A stretch of 64,000 bases of DNA. Source: Lentinus brumalis. Its lineage: Eukaryota; Basidiomycota; Agaricomycetes; Polyporales; Polyporaceae. Position 1 is the first letter of the stretch, and the number at the start of each line of letters is the position of its first letter. The notes under the pieces were generated by a model, which did no database searches, was not told where the DNA came from, and saw only the letters and a program-made list of their open reading frames with translations. A program made the translations under genes and the position numbers. Of the stretch, positions 22,029-52,042 are shown piece after piece. The stretch lies in NCBI GenBank assembly GCA_001792895.1, contig MARA01000009.1:930001-994000 (forward strand), read 5' to 3'.

Positions 22029-22064
22029 GTATGACGAGGGTTTTAGGACAAAATAAATCGTGGT
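22029..22064 (+). repeat. Left terminal inverted repeat
   Basis: Begins GTATGACG, identical over 8 bp to the reverse complement of 52,035-52,042. Further imperfect matching extends to about position 22,064. Confidence 0.7.
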
Positions 22065-22077
22065 TTCGTTTCGACAC

Positions 22078-22385
22078 ACTTTGCACAGAGTTGCACTATC
22101 ATGCACCAAATTGCACATCGTTGCACCCCTTTGCAATCGTTTGCCCTCCTGTGAACACGCTTGCTCTCGTTTGCACTGGCATGCGCTCAATTGCACTCCT
22201 TTGCAACCCGATTGCACGCAGCGTGATAAACAACCTCAGGGACGCCCGCCGTTATTGGGCCACCAGCACATTTGCGCTGGATTGAATTACCTTGCACCCC
22301 CGTTGCACCCCCTTTGCACTCCTTTGCACCCGCTTGCAACGCATCGAATTGCCACGTTGGCGCCGGCATGCGGTTGCAATTCGCA
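22078..22385 (+). repeat. Left subterminal TTGCA array
   Basis: About fifteen TTGCA motifs in roughly 300 bp, often as TTGCACTCC or TTGCACCC. The region at 51,540-51,985 has the same motif on the opposite strand (TGCAA, often GGAGTGCAAA). Such inverted subterminal arrays are typical transposase-binding regions of DNA transposons; binding is inferred. Confidence 0.7.
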
Positions 22386-22697
22386 GATTGGACGCTGGGG
22401 GTGGTATTTTCTCCCCCAGCGTCTGAACGGGAGGCATCCTCTCTCGTCGGGGCGCACAGCCACCACTGCATCTCAACCACCTCGCCAGAATGCCAAGATC
22501 ATCCCGCGTAGGTACGCGTGCGCCACCTGACTATTATTGTCCTGCGACAACTAATATCCTCGAGGTCGTCCGATGCAAACCCGAAAGCCGTTTCGAGGTC
22601 GACTCGATCTCCTCGCCGACTCGGACTTCGCACTTTCCTCTGACCCCCCATCATCAGCCTTCTCATCGTCTCGCCTCCCGCCATTCGTACTTCTGTC

Positions 22698-25600
22698 ATG
22701 CCTCCGTCTGTGTCCCCCGCTCCCAGCGGTTTCCCTCCCCGGGGCGACTGTCAACACCCCGAATGCCTTGGCGATCCACTCGGTTCTTGCGCATTTTTTG
22801 CCGTGACCGACAACAACATCCCTCGCGCTGTGAGTTCATCTCTCCTTTGTGACACCTTCCCACTTGGCAACCACGTACTGTCATCCCGTATACTTTTATT
22901 TCGCTCTAGGCATGATATGCACTGTCATTCAAACTCCCATTCCACCGCGCATGACTATCTTCCTCCCTACGTTCCGCCCTTTCTTGTACAAGGCTCACAC
23001 GTTACATGCGCGTTTTCTCCGCAGCACGCCCTGCACCCCGAGGAGGTCTGCCATCAGTGCGGGCATCTCTGGTTTCATCACCAGGCCAAAACCGCGGAAG
23101 CGCAGAGCCAGCCTCGCAACTGGGCCCGCGGAGGTTGTCCCTCCAGTGCATGTGGGGGCTTCCTCTCGGTACGTACGCTCATCTGTTGGCTTCCTCATCC
23201 TTCCATCTGATTGTATGTCCAGCTCGATCCACCCGACAGCTGGGGGTACACCTCCCTGTGCGTGTGCGGCCGTCTTCTTCGGGCTCATGGTTCTCCACCG
23301 CTGTCTCTCGGCTTAGCGTACGTCCTCCTTTCGCTGATTCTTCTTGGCGGATGTTCCCTCAATCTTCTGTAGCACTGGGGCCAGCTCAGCCGCCCCTCCG
23401 CAATTCGCAACGACCCATCCCACCGCCGCGGCGCCCACTCCCTTCGTCCCTTCGGGATTACCGAGCCTGCTTGGCGGCGCCGGCGCACGCCCCGCGTCTT
23501 CCTCCACTCCTATGCCCCCACCACTCACTGCATACATGACCATGCGTGGCCCCGATCAAGGCCCGGTGAACGATCAGCGCCTGGCAGCCTCGGCTCGCCA
23601 CGGAGGACACCCGCTTCGCCGCCCTGCCCCGGCCGACATGCCTCGCGGCGCCCTCAGCCCTCCTCCCAACCTCCCGCGTTCGCGGACCACGGTCGCCAGC
23701 GTCCCTGCGGGGCCGCATACCAATGGCGGGGCGGTGCTGCAGCTGCATCCCCACCACGCTGCGCCCCCGTCTGCGGTCGCCACTGCTATGAGCTCAAGGG
23801 CGGGTAGCTCGGCGGCAGCGGTGGCGGCATCGTCGTCGTCGGGATCGTCGTCAACCGAGGCGGGTAACACTGCTCATGAGATTTTTTCTGTGTTGATGTT
23901 TCCTTTCGTCGTACGTCGCATTGGTTGGGTTCGATGTGGCAAGTCCTTACGCACGTCCCCTGCAGCCTCCCGCGTACAAACGCCGTGCAAATGGCACCTA
24001 TCCTCATTCCAGTATCGCCTTCCACCCCGCCGACTTCAAGAATGTCGTTGAATCGCTGGAGCACTGGGGGCTGCTCTTCTCCGTGCGCCTCTCCCGCACC
24101 GGGTCGGTCTTTAGATCTCTTGGTACGCAGGTCATCACGCAGTTGGACTCGTTTGGTATAGAGCTGCCTGGTTACGATCGCGCCAAGTCCTGGACAGCCC
24201 CGCAAGACTTGCCCTTCGTCTTGCTCAACGCATCCAACAAGAAGGACGATATGAAGCTGCACTCCCCGTATGACTCCTTCAACGAGGAAGAGTTCACTCA
24301 TGCGTCTCTCACCGGTAAGAAGCCCAACCTCGTCGGCATATCGTGTCCTGTTGGCGGGCCTCTCATGAAGCATCGCTTCCTCCGTCTCGGTATGACTGTC
24401 TTCCTTCGTCTTCCTTCCATATGTATGTTGTTAACATAACCCGCTCTCTTCAGCCCCTCGCTTCGGCGATCTGCGCGCCCCACTCAACAATCATGCCGCC
24501 TTCGTTGCTGGTGCCCCTGGCTTGCAGGACTTGCTCTCCATCGAGGCTCCTGAGCCACCTCACCCCTGCTTTCCTCATCGCGTTCTCTCGCACGTTGTCG
24601 AGGAGCTCACCGCCAAGTGCCTCGTCAGTTGTCCCGTCGCCTCTAGATTCACTCCCCCGGCAGCCCCACTCTCACTTCCGCTGACATTGCAGCCCCGGCT
24701 CCGGTCGTCGCACGTCCCCGTCCCCGTCCTGTAACACGTTCGTCCGCCTCCCTTCCCCCTCCCATCGTGATCCCGTCTGCTCCGTCCGCACCGCGTGAGC
24801 TTGACCTGGACGACACCGACGAGGTGAGCACTGCAAGTCCTCAATCGCCGGCCAGTTTCCTCGCCACACTCTCTCAATCCAGAGGGCTGGTCGAGCCGCT
24901 GTTCCTCGCAGAGCTCCCCGGCAATCCTGCCTCCCTCGATCCCACGTCTCACATGGACGTCGTGGAACCTCAGCCGGGTGTGACTGCACATGGTCAAGTT
25001 GATCTTCATCCCACAGCCGAAGTCCGTCACGAGGTGGCTGCAAATGCTGTCGTAAGTGACATTTCTCGGCATCGGTTTAGGTTCGCGTTTATTGATTTTT
25101 GCCGGCCAGCCCATGCCGGACTCCAACGCGCATCGAGCTCGAACGTCTGTCCGCATGTCTACCGGTGGTCGTGCACCTCGGGCCCGGGTGGTCGCTCCCG
25201 CCGATTCCTCCGACTCTGAGATGCACGACGATACCGCCTATGATGACGACGCCCCGTATGAACCTCCTCGTGGCAGTCGCCGCACTCATTCTGACATTGC
25301 GTCGCCGGAGGTGCGCTCCTCGTCTGCTGCCACTCTGGTGTCGTTCTTGATTCATTCACATTGTAGACTCCTGCGTCGGTACCTCCGTCAAATCGCCGGC
25401 GTGTGGAAGGGCCCCAGCCCGGCCAGGTTGGCGTGCGTGCCATACCAGTACGACCCTTCGCCTGTTTGGTCTCAAACGTGAACTGATCAGCACTCGCGCC
25501 CTGTAGGCCCGTCCTCCTGTCTGCACGGAACCGCTACAGAACCTCGGCAAGCGTGAGTTGGCGGGCTGGTCTGACCGGGTCATCAGCGGCATTCCGCCGG

Positions 25601-27438
25601 CCTCATCGCGCTCCCTCGTGAGTCACAACCTGCCTGTACGTGTTTTCCCATCGCACCCGCTCGCACGGTTCGCTCATGGATCACCATTGCGCGCACAGGG
25701 CCTTCGCCCCAAAATACGAGCCGCCGACGTCAAGCAAGGGGCCTCTATTCTCATTTTTATGGTTGAATGGCTCTTCACCCACGCGGCTTCAGGCCCGCTT
25801 ACCTCCGCTCAGCGTGGGGCGTTCGAGGTCGCCTTCCGCGCTGAATATCCGGCGCCTGAGGTCGAGTGTGATCTCGTGCCACTCACGGAGATCATGCGCC
25901 ACGCTCACCATCTGGATGTTGAGGTGTGAGTGTTATTGCGCGATCGTCTGCTTCCGCTCGCAATGACATTGATATCATCTCTGGCAACGCACAGCGAACA
26001 CGCCCTTGGGGACAGCCCTATTCGCTCTATCTTGCGCCATGCTATCCACACCGTCTCTTCCCAGAGGGGCTATTGGCAGCCTCTCGGGCGATACAATACG
26101 ATTACGTGGTTCCTCCAACGAGCCGAACGTCAGGAGCGCGACGTCGCATTGCGTACGAGTGGCTTCCTCTCCCTCCTCCATCTCGTCGTCTTGCTTGTTG
26201 GCCCAGATCCGATCTCGCCCTTCGCCCTGCTCAACATCTTGCTCGGTCGGGTCCGCAGCTGTCGCTATGACGAACACTTCATGATGACGTTGGATCCGGA
26301 GTTGGTAGGACGCCTTCAGGTTTGGAAGGACTTCGACATCTCGCAGCCTCTCCCTCGGGACCCCAATGATCCTTTATACCATCTTCTCGTGGCCGCGGAG
26401 ATTGACGTGAGTACCTGTTCTGCAGTTCGGGCTCAGATTCTCCGATCTTTGACATCCCTGGGTATCGTAGCCGTGGAAATTTGGTGACGGCCCACTGCAG
26501 GCGTGTGACCTTCTCAGCGTCGAACAGGACCTCGTCTCCCAGATGGTTCATGGGAAGCCTGTCATCAGCGACGACGAACTCGACATGGTCGCTTTCGCAG
26601 ATGGCTTTTTCGCTGCTCATCCTCGGCGTAGCCGTCTTCTCGAGGTGAGTACCACACCCTCTCTGAACTTTACCGTCCTCTGACGTGGGGACGTCATCAG
26701 AGTTTCCGCGGGTTCGAAAGAGACTACATTGCGGCGATGTGCAATCAGCGGCTGGAAGACGTCGGGGTGCTGCTCAGCCACCTAGAGTTCATCAAGATCG
26801 ACGAAGTGGATATGGGTTTCGAGGACGATGTCGAGGAGGTCTCTGGTAAGGAGTCCGGCAGCAGCGTGTCACAGCTACCGGACTCCGTGTGGGACGCGTA
26901 CTTTGAGTCCGAGTTTGAGGACGCCTTGCGTTATTATCTCACTCAGAGCGGTCATCCTGACCACCCAACCATTCGCTCGATGGTGGGAGATCGCTTCCAG
27001 GATCAGGCTGAGGACCCTCTCCTCCGTGCCCGGCTCTTCTTGACGATGATGTCTGGGAGTGATCTGGTACCGATTGAGCCTGCTTGGAAGATCAAGGTGC
27101 GTCCGGAACGGCTCCTCCAACCGACTTCGACCCGCTGATGTATCATTGCTCAAGATTCACTTCGTGCACACCGGCACTCGGTGTCCCGATCCGTCTCTCG
27201 AAGTGGAGGCCGTTCCCCGCGCGGTGAGCCCGTCATGTAACCTTTCAGCGCCCCGCTCGCCCTGATGCGTTCCTCGGCGAACCAGATTCAAGTTCAAGCA
27301 TGCTTCTTCGACTGCGCGATCACGATGGACGATGGGCTGCGTGCCCTCCTGAGGTTGAAGGAGGCTGAACCATGGCTCTCGTTTCAGGTGTGGTTCCATG
27401 GTGCGGTGTTGGATCCCGACGACTTCAACCAGGCGTAG
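22698..27438 (+). CDS. HECT-like large protein with N-terminal Cys/His region (element gene)
   Basis: A chain of short exons, all on plus. Exon 1 is 22698-22829 (MPPSVSPAP..., a C-x-HPEC motif, DNNIPRA). A Cys/His exon follows with EEVCHQCGHLWFHHQ (about 23,029-23,170), then a Pro/Ser/Ala-rich exon (about 23,344-23,870). Next are FDVASPYARPLQPP... (about 23,930-24,390), acidic linkers (24.78-25.3 kb), WLFTHAASGPLTSAQRGAF (about 25,760) and SQRGYWQPLGRYNTITWFLQRAERQER (about 26,060). The C-terminal exons hold GPDPISPFALLNILLG, FRGFERDYIAAMCNQRLEDVGVLLSHLEF (about 26,700-26,790), SGHPDHPTIRSMVGD, IHFVH and CFFDCAITMDDGLRALL. The end resembles the HECT-like C-termini of basidiomycete transposon-associated proteins as I remember them; ligase activity is unproven. 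Exact exon edges between 22.9 and 25.9 kb are uncertain. Confidence 0.6.
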
Positions 27439-27826
27439 AGAACACGCGCACGAGGCGTTGCATGAGAGGCATGGTATTGGAGGTTGGGTAGCTGTAGTCT
27501 GTACTGTGTTACCTTTGCTCGTCTTACGTCGAGCCGTCTCGTGGAGAGCGGTCGCACTGATTGGTGATCGTGTGTGCCCTCGCGATGGGCGCGGTCTCAC
27601 TCTCAACGACCCAGTTCTGTGTGATTGTCTCTCGACATGTACCTCCCGCTGCACTGTATAATACACGCCAACACGTTTGTAGCAGCGATACCGCCGAGTG
27701 CAGGAGCACGAAACCAACATGCATGAGGGGAACACACGAGGCAGCTTGGGCGATGCCCGATCAGCTTGATCACCGTGGGTCGCTTCCTGCTTCTTGCCCT
27801 CAAAGTCCGTTGCGCGGTGCTCTGTT

Positions 27827-28398
27827 ATGGCCTCTCATCCCCTTGTCGAACGTTCCCTTACATCTCTGCTGTTGCAAGTAGGTCACTTCACGAGGCGTCG
27901 CGGTTTTCGTCGCCGTCCTCGAACTTTAAGTCTGATTGTCCCCTGCCAGTTGCGCTCCATGCAGAGCCAAATTCGTGAATATGCGCCGGCATTTTTAGGT
28001 ATGCATTGTGGGACTCACCAAGTCCGAGGCAATCACGATTCATGCTTACTGACGATGTACCAACAGAACTCGGCGACCGCGAGACCATTGCCGTCTTGGA
28101 GGCCGTCCACGATCGCCTCTATGGTGAGTCTCAGATTGTATTTCGCCACGCCGTGGAGCCCCCGAATATTGATGTTTGCGGCAACTCAATCCCAGAGGCC
28201 GAACGGCAGGTGGATGTGCGGCTCCTCGACATCGACTTTGCCAATGCGCACCCAAGTCCGAGCGAGGACGCCATGATAGATCTCCAGCCCGCGGAGCAAT
28301 CATTCCCCTCAGAATACGACACGGTCTGGTCAGACCCCCGCACCGAGGACCATCCGGATGCGTGTCCGACACCCCCATGGCCTTGGGAGGACTACTGA
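27827..28398 (+). CDS. Small acidic protein of unknown function (element gene)
   Basis: Three exons, 27827-27877, 27950-27998 and 28067-28398, with GT-AG junctions in compatible phases, giving about 143 residues. The N-terminus reads MASHPLVERSLTSLLLQ, then LRSMQSQIREYAPAFL and ELGDRETIAVLEAVHDRLYG. The C-terminus is rich in Asp, Glu and Pro. A second open frame overlapping the stop (about 28,372-28,609, ending GYTWTSME) has the same acidic composition. It may be the true C-terminus after a one-base indel or an unseen intron. No family recognised. Confidence 0.55.
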
Positions 28399-29330
28399 CT
28401 ATGGGTGGTGGCTCCCACTTGGGCTATTGGATGTGGATCATTACGAGCCGGACTGGCCCTCGCAAGTCCTGCTTGAACTGGAGGAGGAAGCTCAACCTGA
28501 GCTCGCCGGGCGGGCGGAGGCGGAGCGCATTTGGCAGAGCTTGCAGGCGTATCTGCAGGATATCGAGGACAGTTTTCCCGCCGGTTATACGTGGACCTCG
28601 ATGGAGTAGATGTTGCGTGGGTCATACCTTGTATGCGATGCTGGACGCCAATGTCAGACGGAATGAGTGCGACCGGTCGGCCGATGTCGCCCACAGCTCA
28701 GTGTTCACCGTCGACAGTGAGTCGAGGTGTCCGGTTTGCCGAACCGAATCCCTGCGGGGGCACCTACGGCGTTCGAGATCAGAGTGTTCGACTCATAGTC
28801 GCTGCCTGCGCAGTGCGCACTGCACGCACGCAGTATGAAGAAAGGCGGGGCAGCGTGCGTTGTTGATGAGTGGGCACCGTGACTGTAAACTGACTTGTGA
28901 GTGACGATCCGCGCGTACTGTCTCCATATTCCAGTGAGAGGGCCAAGCTGACACGTCGAAGCGTGCAGGTTGGTGGTGTGGGATGGTTAGTTGTAGCACT
29001 CAAACTTACATCACGCTTACGTTACGGAGGTGTCCGTGCCTGCAGATCTTGCGTGGATGCCAGTGGGGTTGTGTGGGTCCGTGTGTTCAGCGGCGGTGTA
29101 GGCTCCATGATAACTTTGACAGCTTGTTTGGGGTCCTTGCAACGTCCGGCGTATTGTATACTTCAGACGATTGTGAGAATTGCAACAGAGGGTACTCTGG
29201 CAGGGAGATCGCGGCACATCCAGGGCAGGCAGGCGCAACGTGCTGTGCGCCCCCACGGTGGCGTGCCGATTTCCCTGCATCTTACCACCACCGTCTGTAT
29301 ACGTCCACTTCGTCCTCGCCCAACCAGGCT

Positions 29331-30298
29331 ATGCCGGCTCGTACTTTCACTCCCGATCTTCAGCATGATCGTTGGGGCTCGCCCTTCCCAGCGGTGCCCT
29401 GGGATGTGCCCGCGAATAACTCTTGGGGCTCGCCCGTCCCGACGGTGGCCGGCGATGAGCCCGCGATGCCAGCTGGTGCTTTGCCACCCCTTCCTCAGCG
29501 TACCTCTTGGGGCTCGCCCGTGCCCTCGGAGCCGTGGGATTTGCCAACTCTGATAGCCCGTGGCAACGGTGTGGTTGTGCTGCACGACAACGGGGACGAG
29601 CAACGGGTCAATCGGCTTGAGCGGTTGAGCCTGCACTTCCACATACCTGGTGGCAATCAGTCTAACGAGTCCGCGAGCGAGAGTGTTATGGTTCGTTCCA
29701 TGCACGAGTACCACACACGCTTATTCTGACATGTCAGATCTTCTCGTATAGATCCCTTTTCCTGCGCGTCGGCAGGAAGCTCGCCAGTGGAGAGATTTCC
29801 GTCCTTTCGAAGTGGACCTCTTCCAACTGCGCCTGGAGCAGGAGACGGCATTCGGCGATTTGCACAGCGTGCTTGCGTTTTTTGCGGCCCGCCATTGCCC
29901 GCCCGACGAAGAATGCGTCCAACGTCAATGGCACCAGTTCGCTCGCGCTGTCTGGAACATCGTTGTAGATGCGGCGGAGCCTGCAGAGACCCGCGTGCTT
30001 GCGATTGCCCGCTGGAGTCGGGAGAACCTCTCGGTGAGCGACAACGTCTGGTCGGTGCTGTAACGGCCCTCACGGTCATGGCTAGGAAGAAATATTTGAC
30101 GATCCCTGGTGGGCGGGCAAATGGGAGTGGTGTCCCCAATCTCCGGGCCTACGGGTATCGATGGACGAACAGGAACTACGGTCGGACGAAGACGAGGGCT
30201 CTCAATTCGAGTTCGCGGAGGGATTGGATGGTCTGCCTGTGCCTCCTGGCCACTTCCCGGCTCGCCCGTGGAGCAGCTGGGCGGAGGACGCGGCGTGA
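29331..30298 (+). CDS. Unknown protein with WGSP repeats (element gene)
   Basis: Three exons, 29331-29690, 29752-30033 and 30086-30298, all joining in phase 0, about 284 residues. The first exon has three imperfect repeats around W-G-S-P-x-P followed by PWD-x-P or similar (about 29,369-29,540). The second exon is predicted helical (FEVDLFQLRLEQETAFGDLHSVLAF). The third is acidic and aromatic (DDPWWAGKWEWCPQSPGL, then SDEDEGSQFEFAEGLDG). The donor of exon 1 (GTTCGT) is weak, so that junction is the least certain. No family recognised. Confidence 0.5.
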
Positions 30299-31859: not shown

Positions 31860-33427
31860 ATGCCGGCTCAGCGTCGAGTATCTGACGACTCTGCGCGGCG
31901 CGTAACCAGATCACAAACCACTGGTGTGCGCGACGCAATGCGGGCCGATGAAGGTCCAACGAGGGCTTGTAGCGTTGCGGCCGTCCCTTCACGGCGCACG
32001 AGGCCGCAGGATAGGACACCGCGCACGACCTCGGGGGAAACCACGTTGCACGATAGCGCGGAGAGTGTAGTCTCCCAGGCCCCGGGGAGACGCACTGCTC
32101 GCAAGAAGTGGCAGGACTTTGCGCCCACACGCGCAGAGATCAATCGGCACAAGGAAACGCTGGACATGGAGGTGGACATGGACATGATCAGCGACTTGTC
32201 GGACACAGAGTGCGTATGGACCGCCGACCTCGTGCATCTGGTTTGACCGTCACTGTTTCTCACGACCCGGACGACTTGGGAACACCGGACGTCGAAGGCA
32301 CAGCGTGCGTCTTTGGTTAACGGGGCGGCCAGACTCGCTCGGTCTCACGCTCGCGAGGCGCAGAAGCGCGGCAACACCAGTTCGTCACATATTCATCTCC
32401 CGACATGCCCGCCGCTCAGTCCAAGTACGGCTGCCCAGTTCATATGAAAGTGTTCTCGTTGGTTAATGCCGTCAAGACTCCGCACGGTCGTCCTGAAAAC
32501 GTGAAGGAGGTGGAACCACCGGGGGCGACAACAGTTCTTCGAGGTGACACTTCGGCTCGGATCGAGAGCGAGGATGGGTACGACCTTATCTATCATCTCC
32601 CGGGTGGGCTGCACGGGCGCAATCTGGTACGTGATCTATCCTGAGTGCCTCGGTGATGACGCTCAACTGGGCTGTCGTAGGAGGAGCTAGTGGAGGCAGC
32701 GCGGGAGTGGGGAGAGGCCTGCAAACCGTGCAAATCAGTTTCCAATGACAAGAAAGGAGGGTACAAGGAGGCTGGTGACCTCGTCGGCACGACACGCATT
32801 GTCCTGGCGTGGCATGCGATTGGCCACCCGGTGCGTGCTTCGGTCCAAGACCCATCTCTCCGCGACGTGGCTTACGAGCTCATGCAGCACGACGAACCGG
32901 GCGTATGCGCGGATGTATTGAGGAACAGGCTGACGTTCAACGGCGCATGTGTCCTCCTCGAGAAGTTGGACGTCGTCAACTCCTATGTCATGGCGCTGCT
33001 CAAGGCCATCGACCCCGAGCAATATGCGTCGTTGGAGGAACTTCACAAGTGGCGGCTCAACAAGTACGCCAGCTCCCGTGCCCTTTCCGGTCTGACCAAA
33101 CCGCAGCTGTGGTTCGAAGGGCGCGAGATCCAGTTCAATCGCTTCTCAAAAGCGCACTGGGATAGCCAGGATCCGCACTTCGCGTGGGCGATCATCATCT
33201 ACTTTGGCTCGTTCGGCTCATGCAAGCTTAAATTCAAGCAGTTGCGGACGGAGGTTGTGTTGCGCCCCGGGGACGTGATCGCCATCCGGGGTCAGGATCT
33301 TCTGCATGAGGCAGATGACTGGGATTTTGGGGAGCGGCACTTGCTCGTGCACTTTACGCACCGGGCGCTGTGGAAGCAGGCGAAGAAGGAGATCCGAACG
33401 AGCTTCGCGGCGCCGTACTCTGATTGA
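31860..33427 (+). CDS. TET/JBP-like 2-oxoglutarate/Fe(II) dioxygenase (element gene)
   Basis: Exons 31860-32213, 32333-32626 and 32681-33427, joining in phase 0, about 464 residues. The N-terminal third is basic and Ser/Thr rich (RRVTRSQTTG), with an ARKKWQDFAPTRAEINRHKE segment. The C-terminal part carries a double-stranded beta-helix signature. AHWDSQD supplies the H-x-D pair (about H375, D377), followed by the strand pair FAWAIIIYFGSF / CKLKFKQLRTEVVLRPGDVIAIRG. LLHEADDW gives the third ligand (about H425) and GERHLLVHFTH the 2OG-binding Arg (about R435). This order and the FTH...W ending match fungal TET/JBP dioxygenases as I know them, which oxidise modified bases (5-methylcytosine or thymine) and are expanded with transposons in mushrooms. 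The substrate here is inference. A GGA microsatellite precedes it. Confidence 0.75.
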
Positions 33428-33671: not shown

Positions 33672-35151
33672 TCACTGAGGTTCGATATCATAAAATTCTG
33701 GGGACACAGGTAAGTTGACACCTTTCTGCAGGTTGTAAAGTGCCGCGACCTCCGACGCCCAGCGTAGAAAGGTCTTGCATGGCTCCCAGATTGCATCGTG
33801 AATCCCTGCGGGCAGCGGCTCCTCGGGGACGTGTTGGCGGGTGGGAAGAGGTTTGGGTCCAAGCAACGCCTTCATCGCTTGGTACGCGCGGTACTCCAAC
33901 CTCGGCATAGCATGTCTCTGTGACTGATCCTCCCACAGATGCTTGTTCTGACCCAGCCAGGTGTACACAGATTGCACCTTGTCCATACGCGATCGGACCG
34001 AGCGGTACGTAGCAGGATGCATGCCAAAAGTTATCATGACATGATCAGGCTTGACGCGAACGCTCTCGGCGCCGACTGTCACCCTGACATATCGTCGCTC
34101 ACCCTTGCCCGTTCCGATACCCAGCTCGGCGAGTGCGCTCCCTATGATCCTGAGCCGCTGGACATCGCGATAGGCTACTCCATAGGGAGGTGGAGTGGAG
34201 CTCAACTGCCGTGCCCGCTCAACCCTGGCCCGGAAACGGGTGCAGATGTACTGCACCACGGCGGGCTTGACCGACGGAAGAGGGCGGGGCCCTGTCCCTT
34301 TGTGAGTGCCAGCAGTACGGGTTGAGCCGGAGTCGTCTTCATCATCGTCATCCGATTCTTCTTCGACTGGGGGAACAGGTGAAGAGCGCTCCAATTCTAC
34401 GACACACTTCACGGTCAGTGCGTGCGAGTGAAAGAACAGACGGTACACGCTGACTTACCTAGGTCACTAATGGAACTCTCATCCGAATCGGAATGTGTGG
34501 GCGGTCGCGGGGCTTGCGCTGGTACGACATTCGTCCGCACGGGAACGGGATGAACCCCGAGAGGCAGGTGCGGAGCGACCAAGCTCACTTGTTCGCTCGG
34601 CATGGGCCTCGGGGCACCAAGGAAGACTTGTGCTGCAGGCATCCTGGGTACACTTCGTAACTAAGCCAGGGTTACGAGGATTAGTACACCCTCGACGTAT
34701 ACCATCTCATGAACAAGCATCGCTTACCTGTTCTCGAACGCCACGCTGATGAACTAACGCCAGATTGTCTGGGACGCGGACCCGAACGGGCTGCGTATTA
34801 GCTAAGCGTAGTCGCAAGCGATGTAGGCGGGCTGACGGCGAGAGGTCTCTCCATCGTATAGTAGAAACGGCTCTGCAGAGGAGACCTTGTTACCGACGGC
34901 CGACACTAGCATACAGGGGCACCAAAACGTACTCATTCTGCGTCCGGGTGTGTACGCTACGTCCGGCCGGCAACGATGGGTGGATGCACACGATACCACT
35001 GCCAGGTGGATCAGGTACGGACACCTGCGGTGCGGCTTGAGATCTCTCCTCGGGACGTCCCGTTTCAGGGGGCAAAGTGACCTGCTAGCATGATTCTTTA
35101 AAACTGGAGGTGGCGGCTGGCTACGTGTCAGCGCACTCACCTGGGGAGTAC

Positions 35152-35156: not shown

Positions 35157-35901
35157 TGTTACATTCCATGCCACAAGGCACCAACTCCGGTCCGGACCTA
35201 CCTCGGACTCCGCACCTCCGGTCCGTTCTTACCTGTGATACTATTCTCGATCACTTCACCCCTTATCGTCTTCTTACTTGACCCGGACTCCGGACCATCT
35301 GCTTCCGCTTGCATCCGCCTCCGTGATCAGACTCCGTGCATTCGATCCTTCGATTGTATCCGCCCTTCATTCGATCTTACTATACTTTGTATTGGCTGAT
35401 CATTTGCTTCCGCCTGACTCCGGTTCCGTACCTCCTTACCTATGTCTTGGCTACTCCTCTCCGGACTTTCGGACTTTACTATATAAGCCTTCCTGTAGCC
35501 ACGCTTAGACTTCAGTTCTGATATCTCGTTACACTCCCCGTTACGACTCTGAGCTCAATCTATTCTGTTCGCTCTCTCTCAACGTCCGATCCTTCCGACC
35601 GGACTTCTGACCTCCGACCTCCGACCTCCGACCTCCGACTTCTGCTTGACTTCTTACCTCTGGCTTGACTTCTCTCTGGCTTGGTATTATCTCTTGCTTA
35701 TCTTCTTACTCGTTGCTTGCTCCGGTATAAACCCCGGTTCTCTTGTCTGTCTTAAATTGAAGACCTTCGTGGATCCTCAAGGCGTTGATCAATAGCTTCG
35801 CCGAAGTCTTCACCCTCAGCGCGTCTCGTTCCGGACTTCGTAACTCCGTAACTCTGTCCGGACTTCCACCGGACTTCGTCCCGGCGCGCACGGTCTTAAC
35901 A
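35157..35901 (+). repeat. 5' LTR of the Gypsy element (745 bp)
   Basis: Starts TGTTACATTCC and ends GGTCTTAACA. Contains a TATA-like TACTATATAAG near 35,478-35,488 and four tandem GACCTCC heptamers near 35,608-35,640. It is paired with 42,504-43,247. Confidence 0.95.
35476..35488 (+). promoter_or_regulatory. LTR TATA box
   Basis: TTTACTATATAAG inside the 5' LTR, in the expected place for retrotransposon transcription start. The same motif sits in the 3' LTR near 42,821-42,833. Confidence 0.6.
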
Positions 35902-35931
35902 GTATATCAGAACTCAACTTGAGGATTCATC

Positions 35932-37350: not shown

Positions 37351-37396
37351 AGGCTGCGATCCTCCGCAATCCGCGTGCGGTGTAGATCGCGTTGAC

Positions 37397-39330: not shown

Positions 39331-41010
39331 TCAACATGGTCATCCGGTTCCGCCCCGGAAAACTCGGAGCAAAACCCGACGCACTCACTCGCCGTTGGGA
39401 CGTCTACCCAAAAGAGGGGGATAGTGACTACTCCGTCGTCAACCCACACAACTTTCGACCAGTCTTCACTCAAGAGCAACTCGCTTCATCCCTCCGGGCG
39501 ACGATTCTGCACCTTCCCGTCCTCCGAGCAGTGTTCGCACTCGACGACACGCAACTCCGGACGGACATCCTGTCCGCTCAGAACTCCGGATCCACCTCCC
39601 CGGAGCTCGTCGCGGGCCTCAAGTCCGCTTCTGACCCCAATCATCCCCGTTGGACCTTCAATCCAGAAGGCTTCCTTTGTCTCAACAATCGCATCTATGT
39701 TCCGGATCTTGGCGACCTCCGTCTACGCGTCCTCCGAGCCCGCCACGACCATCCGACGGCTGGCCACTGGGGACAGAACAAGACTCAGGACCTCGTCCTC
39801 CGGGACTACAACTGGCCCGGACTCCGGATCTTCGTCCGGGACTACTGCAAATCCTGTACCACCTGCGCCCGATCCAAAACCCCTCGTCATCTACCCTACG
39901 GAACGCTGAAACAACTCCCCATCCCCGAACGACCGTGGAACTCCATCTCCATGGACCTCATCGAACAGCTTCCGGACTCCGAGGGTTATACCGCGATTCT
40001 TGTCATAGTTGACCGGTTAACCAAACAGTCCATCTTCATTCCTACGCACAACACCCTCAATGCTCAGGAACTCGCCGAACTGTTCATCTCCATGTCTTCT
40101 CCAAGCACGGAGTTCCTTCCCACGTCACCTCGGACCGGGGCTCGGAGTTCGTCTCACACTTCTTCCGTTCCCTCGGCAAAGCTCTCGATATGAAGCTTCA
40201 CTTCACCTCCGGATATCATCCGGAAGGCGACGGACAAACCGAACGTGTCAACCAGACCCTGGAACAGTATCTCCGCATCTACTGCAACTATCAACAGGAC
40301 AACTGGTCCAAACTCCTGCCTCTCGCGGAGTTCGCGTACAACAATGCTCCGAACGCCACCACCGGACTCTCTCCCTTCTTCGCGAACAAGGGCTATCATC
40401 CCGGACTAGCCGTCCACCCGGAACGCGACCTCACCTCCGCTCGGGCTCGGGAGTTCGCCATAGACCTCGACGAACTCCACTCCGCACTCCGAGAACATAT
40501 CGCCGAAGCTCAGGCCCGTTACCAAGTCCAAGCCGACAAACATCGTCTTCCAGCTCCGGACTTCCGGGTCGGAGACTACGCCTATGTCCGAGCCGAGTTC
40601 ATCCGTTCCACTCGCCCCGCCAAGAAGCTCTCAGAAAAGTTCTTGGGCCCTTATGAGATCATCGCTCAGCCCGGAACTCACTCCTTCACCCTCCGTCTCC
40701 CCGAATCCATGCGGGCTATCCACCCCGTATTCCATGTCTCCCAGCTTGAACCCGCAACTCCGAACACCATCCCCGGACGTGTCCAAACTCCGCCCCCTCC
40801 GATCGAGATCGACGGAGAACCCGAGTACGAAATCTCCGAGGTCCTCGACTCCAAGATTGATCGCCGGCGCCGATCCTGTCAACTCCTGTACCTGGTCCGG
40901 TGGGCCGGATATGAAGGCACCGACGAAGAAACGTCATGGATACTCGCTACCGAACTCGACACGCCCAGGAACTCCTTGCGGACTTCCATCGGTCCTATCC
41001 GGACAAGCCC
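39330..41010 (+). pseudogene. Gypsy integrase and chromodomain (one internal frameshift)
   Basis: The HHCC zinc module reads [13 protein letters not shown]...[12 protein letters not shown] (about 39,740-39,875). The catalytic core has Asp in SMDLIEQLP, Asp in the TSDRGSEFVS region (about 40,130, frameshifted between 40,095 and 40,150) and Glu in DGQTERVNQ (about 40,235). The C-terminal GPYEIIAQPG and HPVFHVSQLEP motifs follow, then a chromodomain with YEISEVLDSKIDRR, LYLVRWAGYEGTDEETSWI (about 40,830-40,950). In the family the chromodomain directs insertion to heterochromatin. Confidence 0.88.
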
Positions 41011-41215
41011 GGACCTCTTGCTTCACTCTGATTACTTATGGTTCTTACTTATCACTCATTCTTATCTGGTCATTGCTTCAATTCTTACTCATCTATTCAT
41101 TCTGATCTGATACAAAATCCTTATACTATTACAAAAACATCTGACCCTTCAACTTACTTACTGTCTTATTGTCACTCTTATTCGGTCTTCACTCGGTTTT
41201 TGATCAAGAAAAGAT

Positions 41216-42285
41216 TCATTCTCTATCTACACGGACGTCCGGACTTCGGACTCCGTTCACTTCTTCGGACCCTGGCCTTCGGCCCCTTCCCAGACCCTTC
41301 TCCCGTCTTCTCCGGCTCCTTGCCGGACTCCTGCCCATCCGTCCCTCCGGACTCTCCCCGGACCCTTCACCCTCATCCTTCTTCTCCGGACCCTTTCCGG
41401 CCTCCCGCTCGGACTCCTCCTCTTCTTCGGCCGAACCATCTTCATCGGCCTCCGCTCCTCCCTGGGCTTCGGAACTCCGGTGGCTGGAACCGGGCGAAGT
41501 ACGCCTCCACGGCCCGGCCCGGTTCCGGAAGTCATCCAACTTCCGGAGCTCCATCCGGATCCGGGCCTCCTCCACCCTGGTCTTCCTCACCTCCTCCTGC
41601 AACTCCGACATCTCCTCCTGCAAGGACGCCATGTCCGGCCGGAGCTTCCGGATCTCGCTCCGGCACGCGGACACCTCCTGCAGGACCCGGAGGAAGAGGT
41701 CCCTCGTGTCGAGGGACCCCTCGGCGACCGCGATCTTCTTCGGCCGCGCCTTCTCGACCTCCGGTTCCGGCTCCGGCTCCGGGTGCGCCCTCTCCTTCCC
41801 TTCCCTTCGACCTTCCTTCGGCGTCGGGGTTCGTCCTCGTCGCTGTCGACCTCGTTCTTGACCCGGACGTACGGCGGACTTCCGCCCTCGCACTTCATCT
41901 TCTTCGCCTGGCACCGCACACACGCGGCAGCTTTGCCGGAGGTGTAGTACCGGCATATCGCCATTGCCTTGCGGCAAGGCGTGCAAGGCGAACTACGAAC
42001 AAACATCAGTAAATTCATCAATCCGGACTCCGGGTCCGGACTTACTCGTGACCTTCTCGGTCCGCTCCTCCCCGGCCCCTGCTCCGGACTTCTTCGTCGG
42101 GGTCCTCTTCTTCGGCTGCCTGGCCTGCTCGGCCTCCTTCTCCTTCTCCGCCTTCCGAGCGCGGCCTCCGTCGCCAACCGCTCGGCCTCCAGCTTCTCCA
42201 CGTTGGCCCTAGCTAGGGCCAACTGGGCTTCGGCCTGTTGAAGGCGCAGCGCGGTGATGTCGTCTTGGGTCTTCGGGGCATGGTG
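41216..42285 (-). CDS. Antisense ORF of the Gypsy element: zinc-cluster/coiled-coil protein
   Basis: Minus-strand reading between pol and the 3' LTR. The N-terminal part is a Leu/Ala/Glu heptad region (ALRLQQAEAQLALARANVEK), then Arg-rich. A GTAAGT...TAG intron (about 42,000-42,050) follows, then a cysteine cluster CTPCRKAMAIC...CVRCQAKKMKC (C-x2-C-x6-C...C-x2-C-x6-C). The next frame carries a strong coiled coil (VLQEVSACRSEIRKLRPDMA onward) and a charged tail. Reading it requires a one-base shift after the start ATG at about 42,281 (a C run) and another near 41,820. Both frames flanking each shift have clear coding character. The Cys spacing resembles Zn2Cys6-like DNA-binding clusters. The role is unknown; an accessory regulator of the element is a guess. 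Confidence 0.55.
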
Positions 42286-42490
42286 GTGGTGTGGAAGAAG
42301 AGGATCTGATCACCCCCGACTCCGGCTCGGAACTTTATAGTCCGTAGCCGATCCGGATCTTTCCGACCTTCACAACTCCGAACATCACATCCGACCTTCA
42401 CCTGTCCGATCATCATCCGTCCGGTCATCACACGTCAGATCGAAACATCATTCCATCGGACTTCCTATCGGTCCTCGAGGGCTCGGACCC

Positions 42491-42500
42491 AGTGGGGGGA
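42491..42500 (+). other. Polypurine tract
   Basis: AGTGGGGGGA a few bases before the 3' LTR, the expected position of the plus-strand primer site for reverse transcription. Confidence 0.65.
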
Positions 42501-42503
42501 TAC

Positions 42504-43247
42504 TGTTACATTCCATGCCACAAGGCACCAACTCCGGTCCGGACCTACCTCGGACTCCGCACCTCCGGTCGTTCTTACCTGTGATACTATTCTCGATCAC
42601 TTCACCCCTTATCGTCTTCTTACTTGACCCGGACTCCGGACCATCTGCTTCCGCTTGCATCCGCCTCCGTGATCAGACTCCGTGCATTCGATCCTTCGAT
42701 TGTATCCGCCCTTCATTCGATCTTACTATACTTTGTATTGGCTGATCATTTGCTTCCGCCTGACTCCGGTTCCGTACCTCCTTACCTATGTCTTGGCTAC
42801 TCCTCTCCGGACTTTCGGACTTTACTATATAAGCCTTCCTGTAGCCACGCTTAGACTTCAGTTCTGATATCTCGTTACACTCCCCGTTACGACTCTGAGC
42901 TCAATCTATTCTGTTCGCTCTCTCTCAACGTCCGATCCTTCCGACCGGACTTCTGACCTCCGACCTCCGACCTCCGACCTCCGACTTCTGCTTGACTTCT
43001 TACCTCTGGCTTGACTTCTCTCTGGCTTGGTATTATCTCTTGCTTATCTTCTTACTCGTTGCTTGCTCCGGTATAAACCCCGGTTCTCTTGTCTGTCTTA
43101 AATTGAAGACCTTCGTGGATCCTCAAGGCGTTGATCAATAGCTTCGCCGAAGTCTTCACCCTCAGCGCGTCTCGTTCCGGACTTCGTAACTCCGTAACTC
43201 TGTCCGGACTTCCACCGGACTTCGTCCCGGCGCGCACGGTCTTAACA
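42504..43247 (+). repeat. 3' LTR of the Gypsy element (744 bp)
   Basis: Matches the 5' LTR along its length at a constant offset, apart from one missing C in CCGGTC(C)GTTC near 42,568. Ends TTAACA, followed by GAAGC. Confidence 0.95.
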
Positions 43248-45320: not shown

Positions 45321-46367
45321 CTACGTGCTGACTCCCGACGCAGCCGCACCCCAGATACGGAATGCGCGAAACCATGCGCCCTGGGCCGGGCGCGATGCGG
45401 GGTGGGTACCAGCAGCGACGCCGGAAGCCCCAGTGTCGAGTAGGCCTAAGCCTGCGGGGGAGAGGTCGGGGCGCGCACCAGGACTGGCCATGGTATGACA
45501 AGGATCAGACCGGGACGGGCCGGGCGTAACTGATATTGGGAGGAGAGGAGTACGGGGAGACGAGGAATCAGTGCGTCCGGCGCGCGGGGATGGGGATATG
45601 CGAAGGCGTTTGTGAGGGTGCGCGGGGGTGATGGGGACCGGGACATGTTCCTGGCAGAGGGCAGCCGCGTGCTGAGCATTGGCGCTAGGGGAGGGGAGCG
45701 GGGAGGAGTGGACAACGGGGAGTGTATGGGGTAATGCATATCTGCGACTGCATACCTGTCCTCCAACAGCGGTGCTCTCAGCAGCCTCTTGAGCCCAGCG
45801 AGCTCCTCCTCCAAGATCTTGAGGCGAGTCACCAAGACATCCTCTGTCCGTGATAGTCGACGATCTAGATGCCCCTCCCACGTCGGCGTGCTGTTGCCGG
45901 GCAAGCGAGGATAGTCGTACGCCCCCGGAGTCGGTGGATTGACCACACGGGCCTGCTCCAGTAGCAATGCCAGAGACGCATTGATGTTCTGAATCATTTC
46001 GGGCACTTGAAGATCCGCAGAAGTTGCCTCGACGCCTGGGCAGGGCTGCGTGAGGAACCACGAGAACAGCAACGAAAGAATCCGTATAGGGCTCACCTGA
46101 TCGGTACGAACATCCGAGTCGTTGTGCGTTACACCTGACACAGCCGATGGTTCGCCGGTTCTGAGTGCAATCGTTCGGTACCCCGGCTTGAGCGCATTGT
46201 ACGCAAGGCGCCTTGATACGGGAGCGAGAACCACGTCCGTCTTGCTTGGAGGGACGTGCATCACTGTCCGTTGAAGCGGACCGACTGCGCTTTTGACCGA
46301 TTGAAGCCTGAGTGGGGGCAGGAGGGAAATGGCAGGGGCCTAGCCGGGAGGTAGACGAGCTGGGCAT
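45321..46367 (-). CDS. Zinc-cluster/coiled-coil protein (element gene)
   Basis: Exon 1 is 46097-46367, starting MPSSSTSRLGPC. It has a basic stretch with KRSRSAS and a cysteine cluster C-x2-C-x7-C...C-x2-C-x6-C (CVQCAQAGVPNDC, CVRCNAQRLGC). A GTGAGC...CAG intron joins exon 2, 45756-46035. That exon has helical EMIQNINASLALLLEQARVV and a heptad segment around RLSRTEDVLVTRLKILEEEL. A third exon (about 45,321-45,690) is Pro/Ser rich with HKRLRISPSPRAGRTDSSSP. Cluster plus coiled coil suggests a dimeric Zn2Cys6-like DNA-binding protein. The antisense ORF of the nested Gypsy element has the same architecture. The 3' exon edge is uncertain. Confidence 0.6.
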   Translation of the reverse strand: MPSSSTSRLGPCHFPPAPTQASIGQKRSRSASTDSDARPSKQDGRGSRSRIKAPCVQCAQAGVPNDCTQNRRTIGCVRCNAQRLGCSYRSGEPYTDSFVAVLVVPHAALPRRRGNFCGSSSARNDSEHQCVSGIATGAGPCGQSTDSGGVRLSSLARQQHADVGGASRSSTITDRGCLGDSPQDLGGGARWAQEAAESTAVGGQVCSRRYALPHTLPVVHSSPLPSPSANAQHAAALCQEHVPVPITPAHPHKRLRISPSPRAGRTDSSSPRTPLLPISVTPGPSRSDPCHTMASPGARPDLSPAGLGLLDTGASGVAAGTHPASRPAQGAWFRAFRIWGAAASGVST

Positions 46368-46889
46368 GAAGTGGACTCGGACACCATCACCATCCAGTCG
46401 CACTGCAGAATCGGGGGAGTCGTGACAAGACCCAGGGCACAGGTTCGACTGGGGTGCGGGAAAAGAGAAAGACATAGGACAGATGCGAGGTAGCCTGGTG
46501 TAGAGTGAGTGGTTCGGTGCACGGTGCAAGGAGGTTGAGTGCAATGAGCGGCGTCAGGCGCCTGCTGAACCACATCGCTTTCGCACGGTAACTGCGAAGG
46601 AATAGAACGGATAAGAAAGGTTTCTAACCATGCATGTTGACCGCATACCCTCGCCGTGTTTGCCCTGCAACCATACCGCCACCTGAAGAGAGCCAACGTG
46701 AGGAACTATCTCTGATCCGTATATATCTGCTCCCACCCTGAAATGATCAAGTAATAGAGCCGGCCGTGGAACACTCGCCATCGTGTATTAACCACAAGCC
46801 GATCTCGCACCGACGTGAGTATGTAGTGCGATTTCGATCGCCCTGACACGCTTCAGAACTGATGAGGCTCGTTTGTTCATCTTCGCAGG

Positions 46890-47488: not shown

Positions 47489-47533
47489 GTTGAGTATGTT
47501 ACATACTTAGTACTTCATGCATGTACCAGAGGC

Positions 47534-48328
47534 CTACAAGGTGCGAACGGCATCATAATACTCCAAGTACAGTGGGCCGTGGAGCCACACCTGGAACGCT
47601 AAGTATGGCTGGGCGGAGCGGAGCAGGTTCCGCATGCCCTCGTCGATGGTGAGCGTGAGATGGTGGAGAACGGAGTTGAACTTGCACTGATGTTCGAACC
47701 ATGGCAGGCTCAGTGATTGAGAGACAGCTCCAAAGAGAGAGGACGAACAGGCGCGGGGATAAGAGACTCGTCGGGCACGGTGGCGATGTGCTCGAAATCG
47801 TTTTCAGGCCAGTGGTGCACGAAAAAAACCTATGGAAATTCTCATCGATGAAACGGCAATGATTATGGAGAGACGCACCTTGAGGCGAGGGGCATCGCCT
47901 CTGGCAAGAGCCTCGCATCCTCCCAGGGCATGCAGGAAGAGACGGGCGCAGAGGAGCTGGTCGCCGCTGTCGCGCTCGAAAGTGTCGTCGCCCACGAGTT
48001 CACGGGCTGTCTCATGATCGGGGTGGCCAGTCGCGAAGAGGTACGATGTGATAGCCTCGTGGGCGAGCTGCTCGTACAGAGAACCATATCCTATCCTCAT
48101 CAAGTTTGGATGGATTGGTTCCGGTATATCGCCGTGGTCCAGCGCGCTGGTATCGAGGTCACTGTAGAAATATAAGAGATTGGGAACAACATGTGGATGA
48201 GCGAGTTGGTCGCAGTGGTTGCACATGGCGGGAGGCAAGACTGAGGAAGAGGACAAGCGTGCGGGGCCGGCCGCAGCGCGACATAGGCTGGTGGGGCGCC
48301 TGTGACTCGGCGGGCACATGGGCGCCAT
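47534..48328 (-). CDS. HECT-like protein, C-terminal copy (probably truncated)
   Basis: Minus-strand exons: about 47,879-48,226 or 48,328 (MCNHCDQLAHPHVV...ATGHPDHETARELVGDDTFERDSGDQLLCARLF), about 47,715-47,825 (FFVHHWPENDFEHI) and 47,534 to about 47,700. The last exon reads CKFNSVLHHLTLTIDEGMRNLL, then FQVWLHGPLYLEYYDAV. These align exon by exon with the end of the large plus-strand gene (26.74-27.44 kb: SGHPDHPTIRSMVGD, IHFVH, CFFDCAITMDDGLRALL, FQVWFHGAV). The N-terminal half of that protein is absent here. It may be a truncated paralogue or a small stand-alone version. Its start lies about 240 bp beyond the integrase stop codon. Confidence 0.6.
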
Positions 48329-48562: not shown

Positions 48563-50385
48563 CTAGTGAAACCACGGACGGCAGAAAGTGAGCGCCGACC
48601 GCCACAGCTCCCGCCGAATCGCCATGTTGCGAGAGGAGAGGTCGAAATGATAGCTGAGGTGCTGATTGAGCATGGCAACGACGTCGAAGGCGAGCGGACA
48701 TCTAGGAGGGTCGCAGGTGACCTCCGAAAGGCGAGAGGGTACGGAAGCAGGGGCCCCCAGGTTGGTGTCATGAAGAGGCCTATCGATGTCCGCGGCGTGG
48801 CCGATCTGCACGTTGTGTTCGCGGTGGTGGCGCATAAGAACAGGGTCGTTCATGGCCTCCCAGTCGACACCGTAGTTCACGATATCGTCCACGGGCTCAT
48901 CGGGCGGAGGGCCACCAGCATATGACAGACCGCGGGGACCGTGCTCCGCCACTCCGAACATGAATAACTCGTGTGGGCTCGCCGACTGTTCTCCGCGGAT
49001 GTGAAGACTGTGCGCATTCCACACGGCGGCCCATTCCTGTGCGTCCTGGTTGATCGCGTGCAGGAATAGATGGTGCACCAGCCATATGTGGCCGAGATGA
49101 TCAACATCCAGGTCATCGTGGGCCTCCAGCTCCATGAAGAACGTCTTCCATTTACCTCCGAACCCGAGCGTGACGTCGAACCACAGGCGCTCGATGCGTG
49201 TATTGTGGACGCTTCTGCAGCCGTTCGAGGGATAAGCAGTGCGGCGTAGAACTGACGAGCAAGTACTTACCTCCCCCATATATACGAACCTCGGTTCGGG
49301 CCTCGTACTTCCTCCATCCAGGCAGCCACACGCAGATTTTCAGTCCCGTGATCACCGCGCACGCGACTCGGCATGCCATGAGTTCGGACGGTGTCGAGGA
49401 AGAGTTCGAGTACAGTCTGGGCACGATTGTTGGTATGCACCCGGATGCCCGTGACGTATCGAGAGAAGCCATCTATGAAACAGTGGATGACGAACTTCCA
49501 CCTAATAAGACCTAACCACACGGACATGAGGAGGATAGAACCGACGAAGAGTACGTACGCACCATGTTGTCCGTCGTGATGTACAAGGGAGTTAGGGCCG
49601 GGAACCTTGTATTTCTTGCGGATAATGCGACGGCGGGCAAAATCGGGCGGGGCACCGCGAATGCGAACACATGCCGTGCGCACACGGGCCTCTGGGACAC
49701 GATACCCCCGAGCGCGGAGCGCACCGACGAGCATGACATGCCCGAAGCGGGGGTACGTCGTGAGGATATCGACGAGGACTGCGTCGAGCTCGGCGTCAGC
49801 CATGGTGGACACGGGGGCGGTCTGAGTGGAGTGTATGCGGGTGCGGGTGCCATCAGGGTTGTCTACGGTGCGAAAGACGGGTGGGGCTGGCTGTACAAGA
49901 CCATGGCGTAGCGCTTCACGCCGCACGTGGCGAGCAGAGCACTTCAGGACCTTCGAGACCCGAGCGGGCCCGCGGACCTCGAGGGCGTGGCGGAGGAAGG
50001 CGGGATCGATCTGTTTGGCAGGCCGGCCTCTCTTGCCCGTGCGAACCGTTAGAACGATCGGGAGGGACGGCTCGTCTGGAGGATCCCTATTCTTGTGTTG
50101 GGCATCGTCAAGGTCAGTGACTACTCTGGCCAGGCTCTCCTGGAGGAGGTGGTATTCGGCTGCTGGCATGACATGGCGATGCTATAAACGCGGTCAGGAG
50201 ACAGGGACACAGAATAAGATGGAACGTACCTGTTCAGCCGCGGTCATGAGCGAGGTCGCGAGCGTGCGGACCTGCAAGAGCCGTGGCGGATCGCCGACGT
50301 AGGCACGGAGTGCGACATTGACCTGGTTGATGATATGATTATAATTATTCCGGATATTGGCGAGCTGGTGAAGACTCGTGTCCAT
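48563..50385 (-). CDS. DDE integrase-core transposase (candidate mobilising enzyme)
   Basis: Exons on minus: 50230-50385, 49563-50181, 49271-49511 and 48563-49214, about 555 residues. The start MDTSLHQLANIRNNYN is followed by the helical VNVALRAYVGDPPRLLQVRTL. A helix-turn-helix-like segment follows (RGPARVSKVLKCSARHVRRE). The integrase core has the first Asp in HHDGQH, the IRWKFVIHCFIDGFSRYVTG block, NNRAQTVLELFLDT, the second Asp in SRVRGDHGTEN, and Glu in HNTRIERLW. Spacing is roughly 57 and 35 residues, a D-D-35-E-type triad. The 51-bp intron at 49512-49562 is a multiple of three, so an uninterrupted frame reads through it; splicing it restores the family block. This matches the integrase-core family abundant in basidiomycete genomes. 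That it cuts the TIRs of this element is inferred from location. Confidence 0.85.
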
Positions 50386-50722: not shown

Positions 50723-51159
50723 TCATTGTTCGACACTAGGCTTGCCAGGCAGTTCGCGGTCGAGATGACCCAACGCCTGTGTGATCCTCTCCTCCATCCC
50801 CACGCAGTGCTCGACCGAATGATAGCGGATCAGCACGGTCGGCCGGCGGTACATGCAGACTGCAATGGGCATGTGAGGATAACCCTCAAACCAGACGCGG
50901 TGTTCAGGGACCCAAACCTCATACGTGTCCGCCGGCGCAGAGACTGCGCTCATGAGCTCTTGGAGAGCGGGATCGCTATCGAGGTATACATGAGTCTGCC
51001 CAGCCGCGATGTCCATATAGGTTTCTCGAGCGGGGCTACCTTCCTGGAGATGATGTGATGTTAGGCCAGATGGTAACCACGACAGGGTTTACTTACCGCG
51101 AGGCTGACGTCGGACCACACGTATACGGTGACAATCCAGCTATGTGGTATGCCGGGCAT
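50723..51159 (-). CDS. Small unknown protein, paralogue of the gene at 46.9-47.5 kb
   Basis: Exons 51097-51159 (MPGIPHSWIVTVYVWSDVSLA) and 50723-51043, phase 0, about 127 residues. The second exon has TYEVWVPEHRVWFEG and AVCMYRRPTVLIRYHSVEHC. It shares its single intron position and core motifs with the plus-strand gene at 46,890-47,488. It lies upstream of the integrase on the same strand, between that gene and the right subterminal array. Function unknown. Confidence 0.55.
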
Positions 51160-51539
51160 TTCAAGGTGGCGAGAGGGAAACTGTGTGCGCGTGCGTGAGG
51201 CCTGTGATACTTGATGAACGTGCGGCGTGAAGTACTTACGGTAGTTACTGGCAAGTATGCGGATATGTGGTTAAACCGTTATAGCGATCTTGTTCGGGCG
51301 CAGCGTGAGTTGCTCGTCAAGAGCTACCTCGATCAGGGGCGTCTCACCGAAAGGGCGGGTTTGCGTGGTCACAGAGAGGGCGGGCAGCAGGGGTCGCGCA
51401 CACACCACAGACGTCGGCCGATGGAAAGATCGACGTCATTGACCAGAACAGCAGATGGGCAAAGGGTTGCGATGCCAAGGCTTGGCGAGCACGTCATCCG
51501 TGATTGCCAAGAGTCTGGAAAGACGACGGCGCGGGGAAG

Positions 51540-51985
51540 TGACTGCAAAGGAGTGCAAAGGAGTGCAAAGGAGTAGCCGAGGTTCGTAATTATAGGCGCC
51601 GGGGCATGTTCATTATCGCATGCAGTATGCAAAGGAGTGCAAAGGACTGCAAAGGACTGCAAATCAGGAGATGTCAGTGCAATTGCGTGCAAACGCGATA
51701 GAACGCTGGAACGCACACTGAGCGCTGAGGTCTGCAGATGAAAGTGCAAAGGAGTGCAAGAGGAGTGCAAGCGAGCGCAAACGTGTGCAAATGACGCCCA
51801 TTGGGTGCAAACGCAATTTGTGGGCGTCTATTGTGTGACATGTGTTCGTGCGTGCAAGTCAGTGCAAAGGAGTGCAAAGGAGTGCAAAGGAGTGCAACAG
51901 GGGTGCAACTGAGGTCAAAGCAGTGCAATTACGTGCACACCAGTGCAAGCGAGAGCACACGGCTGCATTCCGCTGCAAACGAGCG
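51540..51985 (-). repeat. Right subterminal TTGCA array (inverted)
   Basis: More than twenty TGCAA motifs on the plus strand (TTGCA on minus), with runs of AGTGCAAAGG at about 51,541-51,573, 51,628-51,665, 51,739-51,790 and 51,857-51,905. It is the mirror image of the array at 22,078-22,385. Confidence 0.75.
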
Positions 51986-52007
51986 CAATTCAGAGCAAAA
52001 GTGGGTG

Positions 52008-52042
52008 AAACTGGTATTATTGTCCACGAAACCGCGTCATAC
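52008..52042 (-). repeat. Right terminal inverted repeat
   Basis: Ends CGTCATAC, the reverse complement of the left end GTATGACG. Inward similarity continues imperfectly for about 25 bp (TTGTCC, GAAACC). Confidence 0.7.

Follow-up and report, generated by a model that had tools for sequence, protein, structure and literature searches.

In Lentinus brumalis, a stretch of 64,000 nucleotides (assembly GCA_001792895.1, contig MARA01000009.1, positions 930,001 to 994,000; hereafter the window) contains about 30 kb of DNA that a preliminary description had taken for a single mobile unit, equipped with its own integrase and with accessory genes for DNA modification, protein turnover and transcription, and belonging to no described class. 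This locus raises three questions: whether it is a transposon at all, of which kind, and whether the genes between its ends belong to it. Our analysis shows that the element, at 22030-52041, is part of a genuine transposon family that has moved recently, which bears out the idea of one large mobile unit. The family has defined ends, 6-bp duplications and many copies, and we hold the element to be very probably an IS3EU/GingerRoot-type DNA transposon of large size in a basidiomycete genome.

Ends and copies of the element

The ends of the element read TATGACG...CGTCATA and are flanked by a 6-bp target site duplication, CAATGG. When ends from the same genome were compared, the other copies turned out to begin with TATGACG or TATGAGG (TATGAGT at C82:295345), while the preceding base varies, hence a terminus of TATGACG and a duplication of 6 bp. 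The ends proposed earlier, GTATGACG (22029-22036) and CGTCATAC (52035-52042), are indeed present as letters, and so is AATG outside both of them, but the termini start with TA and not with GT, and AATG is not a 4-bp duplication; the seeming extra G/C on the termini is there because the duplication starts with C and finishes with G. The combination of a 4-bp duplication with GTATGACG termini was dropped after this comparison. Moreover, the 8-mer on its own is weak (four occurrences in the window for 1.73 expected, a count reached in 9 of 100 shuffles), so that the case for a transposon rests on the 27-bp terminus and on the other copies; as a copy marker, AATGGTATGACG was likewise rejected, with eight occurrences in the genome for three of the reversed control. 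The two 27-bp ends of the window's copy agree at 19 of 27 positions, and left and right ends are two distinct types, each kept across copies.

The search for other copies with the same ends, which the preliminary description had called for, was run in the 53.4-Mb host genome with a 27-base terminus pattern, allowing at most three mismatches and using the reversed pattern as a control. It returned 31 matches, against none for the control. Nineteen of these belong to ten two-ended copies, the twentieth end (C82:295345) having been spotted by eye, while the 12 matches without a partner were left out of the comparison of duplications. All ten copies have a perfect 6-bp duplication, and the ten hexamers are all different (the flanks of C104 share 7 bp, and the C87/C101 pair, which spans two contigs, was compared by eye). 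According to the end coordinates, the copies measure 30.0 kb (window), 29.4 kb (C93), 25.7 kb (C13), 24.2 kb (C44), 21.8 kb (C55), 21.2 kb (C104), 20.9 kb (C1), 20.6 kb (C82) and 2.1 kb (C66).

Two of the copies, C93 and C101, show 99.955% identity along 2201 bp of the transposase region (of 3561 bp, the alignment ending where the copies diverge) and 99.91% identity along 3496 bp of the TET region, yet their duplications differ (GTTATC and GACAAC), and therefore the family has moved recently. In C66, which has its own duplication, the 229 bp inside the right terminus are 97.8% identical to C44. The window's copy has no such near sibling: in the transposase stretch, its nucleotide identity to the other copies is 65-71%, and a DNA probe made of its left 372 bp finds nothing in the genome but the window itself and bits of the window's right array.

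The subterminal arrays described earlier as mirror images of TTGCA/TGCAA are present at both ends, with TTGC counts far above those of shuffled sequence: 19 in 371 bp (shuffle mean 1.71) and 27 in 501 bp (shuffle mean 2.94). The spacing between neighbours is 10n or 10n + 1 bp in 16 of 18 and 23 of 26 cases, respectively, which none of 20000 random placements reproduced for either array. C101, C1, C44 and C82 also have arrays of this orientation at their right ends, which are sparser in the latter two.

Several other loci were noticed on the way. At C44:614500-615200, an insertion of about 280 bp with inverted-repeat ends, identified by eye, lies between the terminus and the array and is missing from C66. 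Five transposase loci (C45, C49, C95, C109, C110), 99.3-100% identical over 3252 bp and with TET genes nearby, are all no more than about 20 kb away from a contig end, and the terminus pattern finds no ends for them. Five identical left-type ends (TATGACGGGATCCATAGG...; C35, C49:34796, C68, C72, C76) have no partner ends that we could find; gene A homologues lie inside those at C35, C49, C72 and C76, and those at C35, C68, C72 and C76 are within 15 kb of a contig end. Finally, three loci with an rva_4 domain (C1:3835445, C100:5260, C102:113203), identical over 3297 bp and containing internal repeats, represent a more distant family.

Transposase and class of the element

The DDE integrase announced by the preliminary description was found as a transposase with a Pfam rva_4 domain, in which the D, D(34)E triad is invariant in 12 of 12 aligned sequences; in the same alignment, inspected by eye, no conserved His/Cys pairs of an HHCC zinc motif stand ahead of the catalytic core. 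Among NCBIfam profiles it matches IS481 at E = 2.8e-13 and IS3 at E = 8.6e-7, although these matches fall far short of the curated naming thresholds. Numerous Agaricomycetes have relatives of it: of 7994 candidate proteins that were scored, 411 reached E <= 0.001. Among the matches listed, the best ones for the transposase are from Ganoderma and Trametes, those for gene A from Lentinus and Polyporus, which makes a polypore the probable host.

To place the element, we relied on excerpts of the papers cited here and below. IS3EU/GingerRoot elements end in TA..TA and, as a rule, duplicate 6 bp of the target (PMC10045372), and all ten two-ended copies have TATGA..TCATA termini; it is the IS481/IS3-like transposase, the TA..TA termini and the 6-bp duplications, taken together, that make the fit, and the element most likely works like, and is, a member of IS3EU. 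The preliminary description was thus mistaken in holding that no described class fits; TET-bearing members of this one have already been reported (PMC12730594). It was right to set aside KDZ (Kyakuja-Dileera-Zisupton) elements and Ginger, since a duplication of 6 bp rules out both the former (7 or 8 bp) and Ginger1/2 (4 to 5 bp; PMC10045372). No tyrosine recombinase captain of Starships appeared among the scanned open reading frames (ORFs) and gene models, which were not searched for one specifically.

One could also think of a virus-like element of the Polinton/Maverick type, which would share the rve-type integrase and the 6-bp duplication (PMC10045372). We regard this as exceedingly improbable: the transposase is closest to IS481/IS3, and our Pfam scan, which took in seven gene models and 20 ORFs out of the 106 stop-to-stop ones of at least 120 aa between 21 and 53 kb, brought up none of the polymerase, capsid or packaging ATPase families of such elements; the retrotransposon families among its matches belong to a nested Gypsy element. 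In addition, Polinton termini are AG, those of the element TA.

Genes between the ends

The features of the element are collected in Table 1; gene models come from a simple in-house predictor and are approximate.

Table 1. Coordinates in the window of the element's ends, arrays, genes and nested insertion.
Feature	Positions	Strand	Remarks
Left target site duplication, CAATGG	22024..22029	.	Identical hexamer at 52042-52047
Left terminal inverted repeat, 27 bp, TATGACGAGGGTTTTAGGACAAAATAA	22030..22056	+	Left-type end also present in other copies
Left subterminal array	22081..22338	+	TTGCA spaced by about 10 bp or multiples thereof
Gene A, HECT-like, many exons	22698..27438	+	tblastn with Lentinus brumalis P0121, 22719 to 27435; start set by eye, exon model approximate
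Region B, separate gene or 3' part of gene A	27753..30295	+	Similar to residues 1193-1630 of P0121; lacks known domains
TET/JBP dioxygenase gene	32216..33427	+	Main exon 32681-33427, Pfam PF12851; upstream exons from predictor
Gene C, conserved protein	33672..34642	-	Found in other copies
Nested Gypsy/Ty3 long terminal repeat retrotransposon, not part of the element	35157..43247	+	GAAGC at 35152-35156 and 43248-43252
Predicted single-exon ORF D, CxxC motifs	45321..46475	-	No Pfam match
Gene F, second module resembling the C-terminal part of gene A	47552..48208	-	Directly downstream of transposase gene
Transposase/integrase gene, rva_4 domain, DD34E	48563..50247	-	Start codon uncertain
Right subterminal array	51544..51997	-	TTGCA (TGCAA on + strand); limits approximate
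Right terminal inverted repeat, 27 bp, TATGACGCGGTTTCGTGGACAATAATA	52015..52041	-	
Right target site duplication, CAATGG	52042..52047	.	

The TET/JBP gene named in the preliminary description is indeed present. Its main exon matches Pfam Tet_JBP below the curated cut-off (27.1 vs. 34.9 bits). In the PDB, a profile built from nine copies, taken from the 20 TET loci that were retrieved, matches NgTet (E = 2.2e-6) and CcTet (E = 4.7e-5). Three features do not vary among these nine copies: the HxD motif, an Asp at H+5 and the second His. This Asp aligns with an Asp of NgTet that has a role in binding 5-methylcytosine. Because the motif is HxD, the protein is not of the PE type, and because the position of CcTET Asp337 is occupied by Ala, it does not resemble an AG-type TET as characterised in the excerpt of PMC12730594.

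TET and the transposase are both constrained and have diverged together. Among five copies, the ratio of nonsynonymous to synonymous differences per site (pN/pS) lies between 0.14 and 0.21 for TET and between 0.18 and 0.30 for a transposase exon (10 of 10 pairs each), values to be read with synonymous sites being saturated and two TET pairs having no finite synonymous distance. Over eight copies, TET and transposase distances are correlated (r = 0.96, reached by 24 of 10000 permutations), and both genes separate the same two clades (C126, C93, C13, C1 and C44 vs. C104, C55 and C53), which correspond to TATGACG vs. TATGAGG termini. These results bear on whether TET, the HECT-like gene and the others might be chance passengers of single insertions rather than a stable cargo, as the small size of C66 and the lack of a TET match in the two-ended copy C82:295345-315929 could suggest. 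With the same gene order in eight of eight two-ended TET-bearing copies, strong constraint and a TET divergence congruent with that of the transposase, such a scenario is very unlikely. Another 19 TET_JBP loci, which score higher with Pfam, lie outside the ten copies (including C59, C64, C115, C81, C1:275579, C51, C53:5454, C83 and C111). Several of them share the same score, as though they were identical, and they are possibly Kyakuja elements.

The HECT-like gene proposed earlier corresponds to gene A, homologues of which are present in other copies. The fold of a HECT N-lobe was found on one homologue (P0124), not on the window's own protein, through a second look with VIA-align at the top 1000 chains of Foldseek. 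By sequence, no Pfam match to HECT was obtained for P0121-P0124 (E up to 10) or P0125 (E up to 1), and no HECT chain in a PDB sequence search (E up to 10); it is the fold, by itself, that suggests a HECT-like identity for gene A. What may be the HxCF-like motif with the catalytic Cys of a C-lobe (IHSCF, IHACF or VQACY) can be discerned by eye in three of five homologues, the C-lobe of the model being not resolved. Gene C is 59-63% identical to its counterparts at five places and 27-31% at more distant ones.

The nested Gypsy, inserted later into the element, has terminal repeats that are 99.87% identical and is flanked by a duplication, GAAGC; subtracting it leaves a unit of about 21.9 kb. The transcription cargo of the preliminary description is not established: the sole Zn-cluster match (41.2-42.0 kb; E = 0.002, below the cut-off) lies inside the Gypsy and was rejected as cargo, and ORF D, despite its CxxC motifs, matches no family. 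On either side of the element, genes of the DUF6535 type are found in the window (5458-7900, 52842-54350 and 61935-63961), with PF20153 at 52752-54347 and the other two recognised by eye from the similarity of their translations.

How such a unit might work can be sketched as follows. The transposase would bind the repeats at the ends together with the TTGCA arrays, which are helically phased, excise or copy the unit and join it to a target with a 6-bp stagger, the gene set moving as a single unit. TET would oxidise 5-methylcytosine in the element's DNA and so counter silencing, while the HECT-like protein may be a ubiquitin ligase, or a decayed one, directed at a host silencing factor or at the transposase. 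That the element stands for a giant IS3EU-like lineage with a co-evolving kit preserved over deep time, in which TET erases methyl marks from the element's DNA and a HECT-type ubiquitin ligase removes host silencing proteins as a second, separate means against silencing, is a tentative proposal that we consider rather doubtful.

Comparison with known elements

The closest reported systems are the TET-bearing IS3EU elements known from rusts and from Tuber indicum (Kojima 2025, PMC12730594). Like the element, they have 6-bp duplications and TA..TA ends, and their TET lies between the transposase gene and a gene of opposite orientation, just as TET here lies between the transposase and gene A. 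In contrast, the termini of those in rusts are TAYGG..CCRTA, with repeats of more than 30 bp, where ours are TATGACG/TATGAGG, and their third gene is an alpha-kinase where ours is HECT-like (PMC12730594); sought as a third gene here, the alpha-kinase was rejected, with none of eight genome matches at E <= 0.001 inside the ten copies. The absence of these two features of the rust subgroup weighs against our reading, as do the C82 copy, which shows that not every insertion carries TET, and the CpG content, which shows none of the depletion that methylation would leave as a trace and so lends no support to heavy methylation. The different termini and the missing alpha-kinase, along with a length of 20.6-30 kb, a transposase nearer to IS481 than to IS3, and a published tree that left IS3EU/GingerRoot and IS481EU unseparated (PMC10045372), would also suit a new superfamily near but outside IS3EU/GingerRoot, with a transposase clade of its own and with its size, HECT-like gene and end arrays as distinctive traits. 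Such a superfamily is nevertheless unlikely, the TA..TA termini and the 6-bp duplications being those given for IS3EU/GingerRoot in the same paper.

Other known systems come close as well. Styx of Zymoseptoria has an IS3EU-related transposase, 6-bp duplications, terminal repeats and extra genes, but is about 7.9 kb long, with well conserved repeats of 36 bp, and the excerpt of its description names neither a TET nor a HECT-like gene (PMC10853768). GingerRoot shares mostly TA..TA termini, 6-bp duplications and a related transposase, but comes from a clubmoss, and the corresponding excerpt mentions no TET or HECT-like cargo (PMC10045372). Kyakuja, a KDZ element, is a DNA transposon carrying TET in Agaricomycetes as well, but with 7-bp duplications, CA..TG ends devoid of inverted repeats, a KDZ transposase and a TET of the AG type with CcTET Asp337 (PMC12730594). 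IS3EU repeats have been counted in Ganoderma, with no further description in the excerpt (PMC8955403). The titles and abstract openings listed by literature searches contained no description of the element, and no paper on TET with an integrase in basidiomycetes came up, a family recorded in databases only being possible.

Relative to what the cited excerpts report, the new features are a TET-bearing IS3EU-like element of 20.6-30 kb in a probable polypore, a HECT-like gene replacing the alpha-kinase of rusts, and TTGCA end arrays with a 10-bp spacing. A TET-bearing element with defined ends, target sites and recently moved relatives is thereby available in what is probably a polypore, from an order for which Kyakuja is the only TET carrier reported (PMC12730594), and the function of a transposon-borne TET becomes directly testable, since TET and the transposase are similarly constrained and have diverged together. 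For the IS3EU/GingerRoot superfamily, the excerpts mention neither a HECT-like gene nor end arrays in helical phase.

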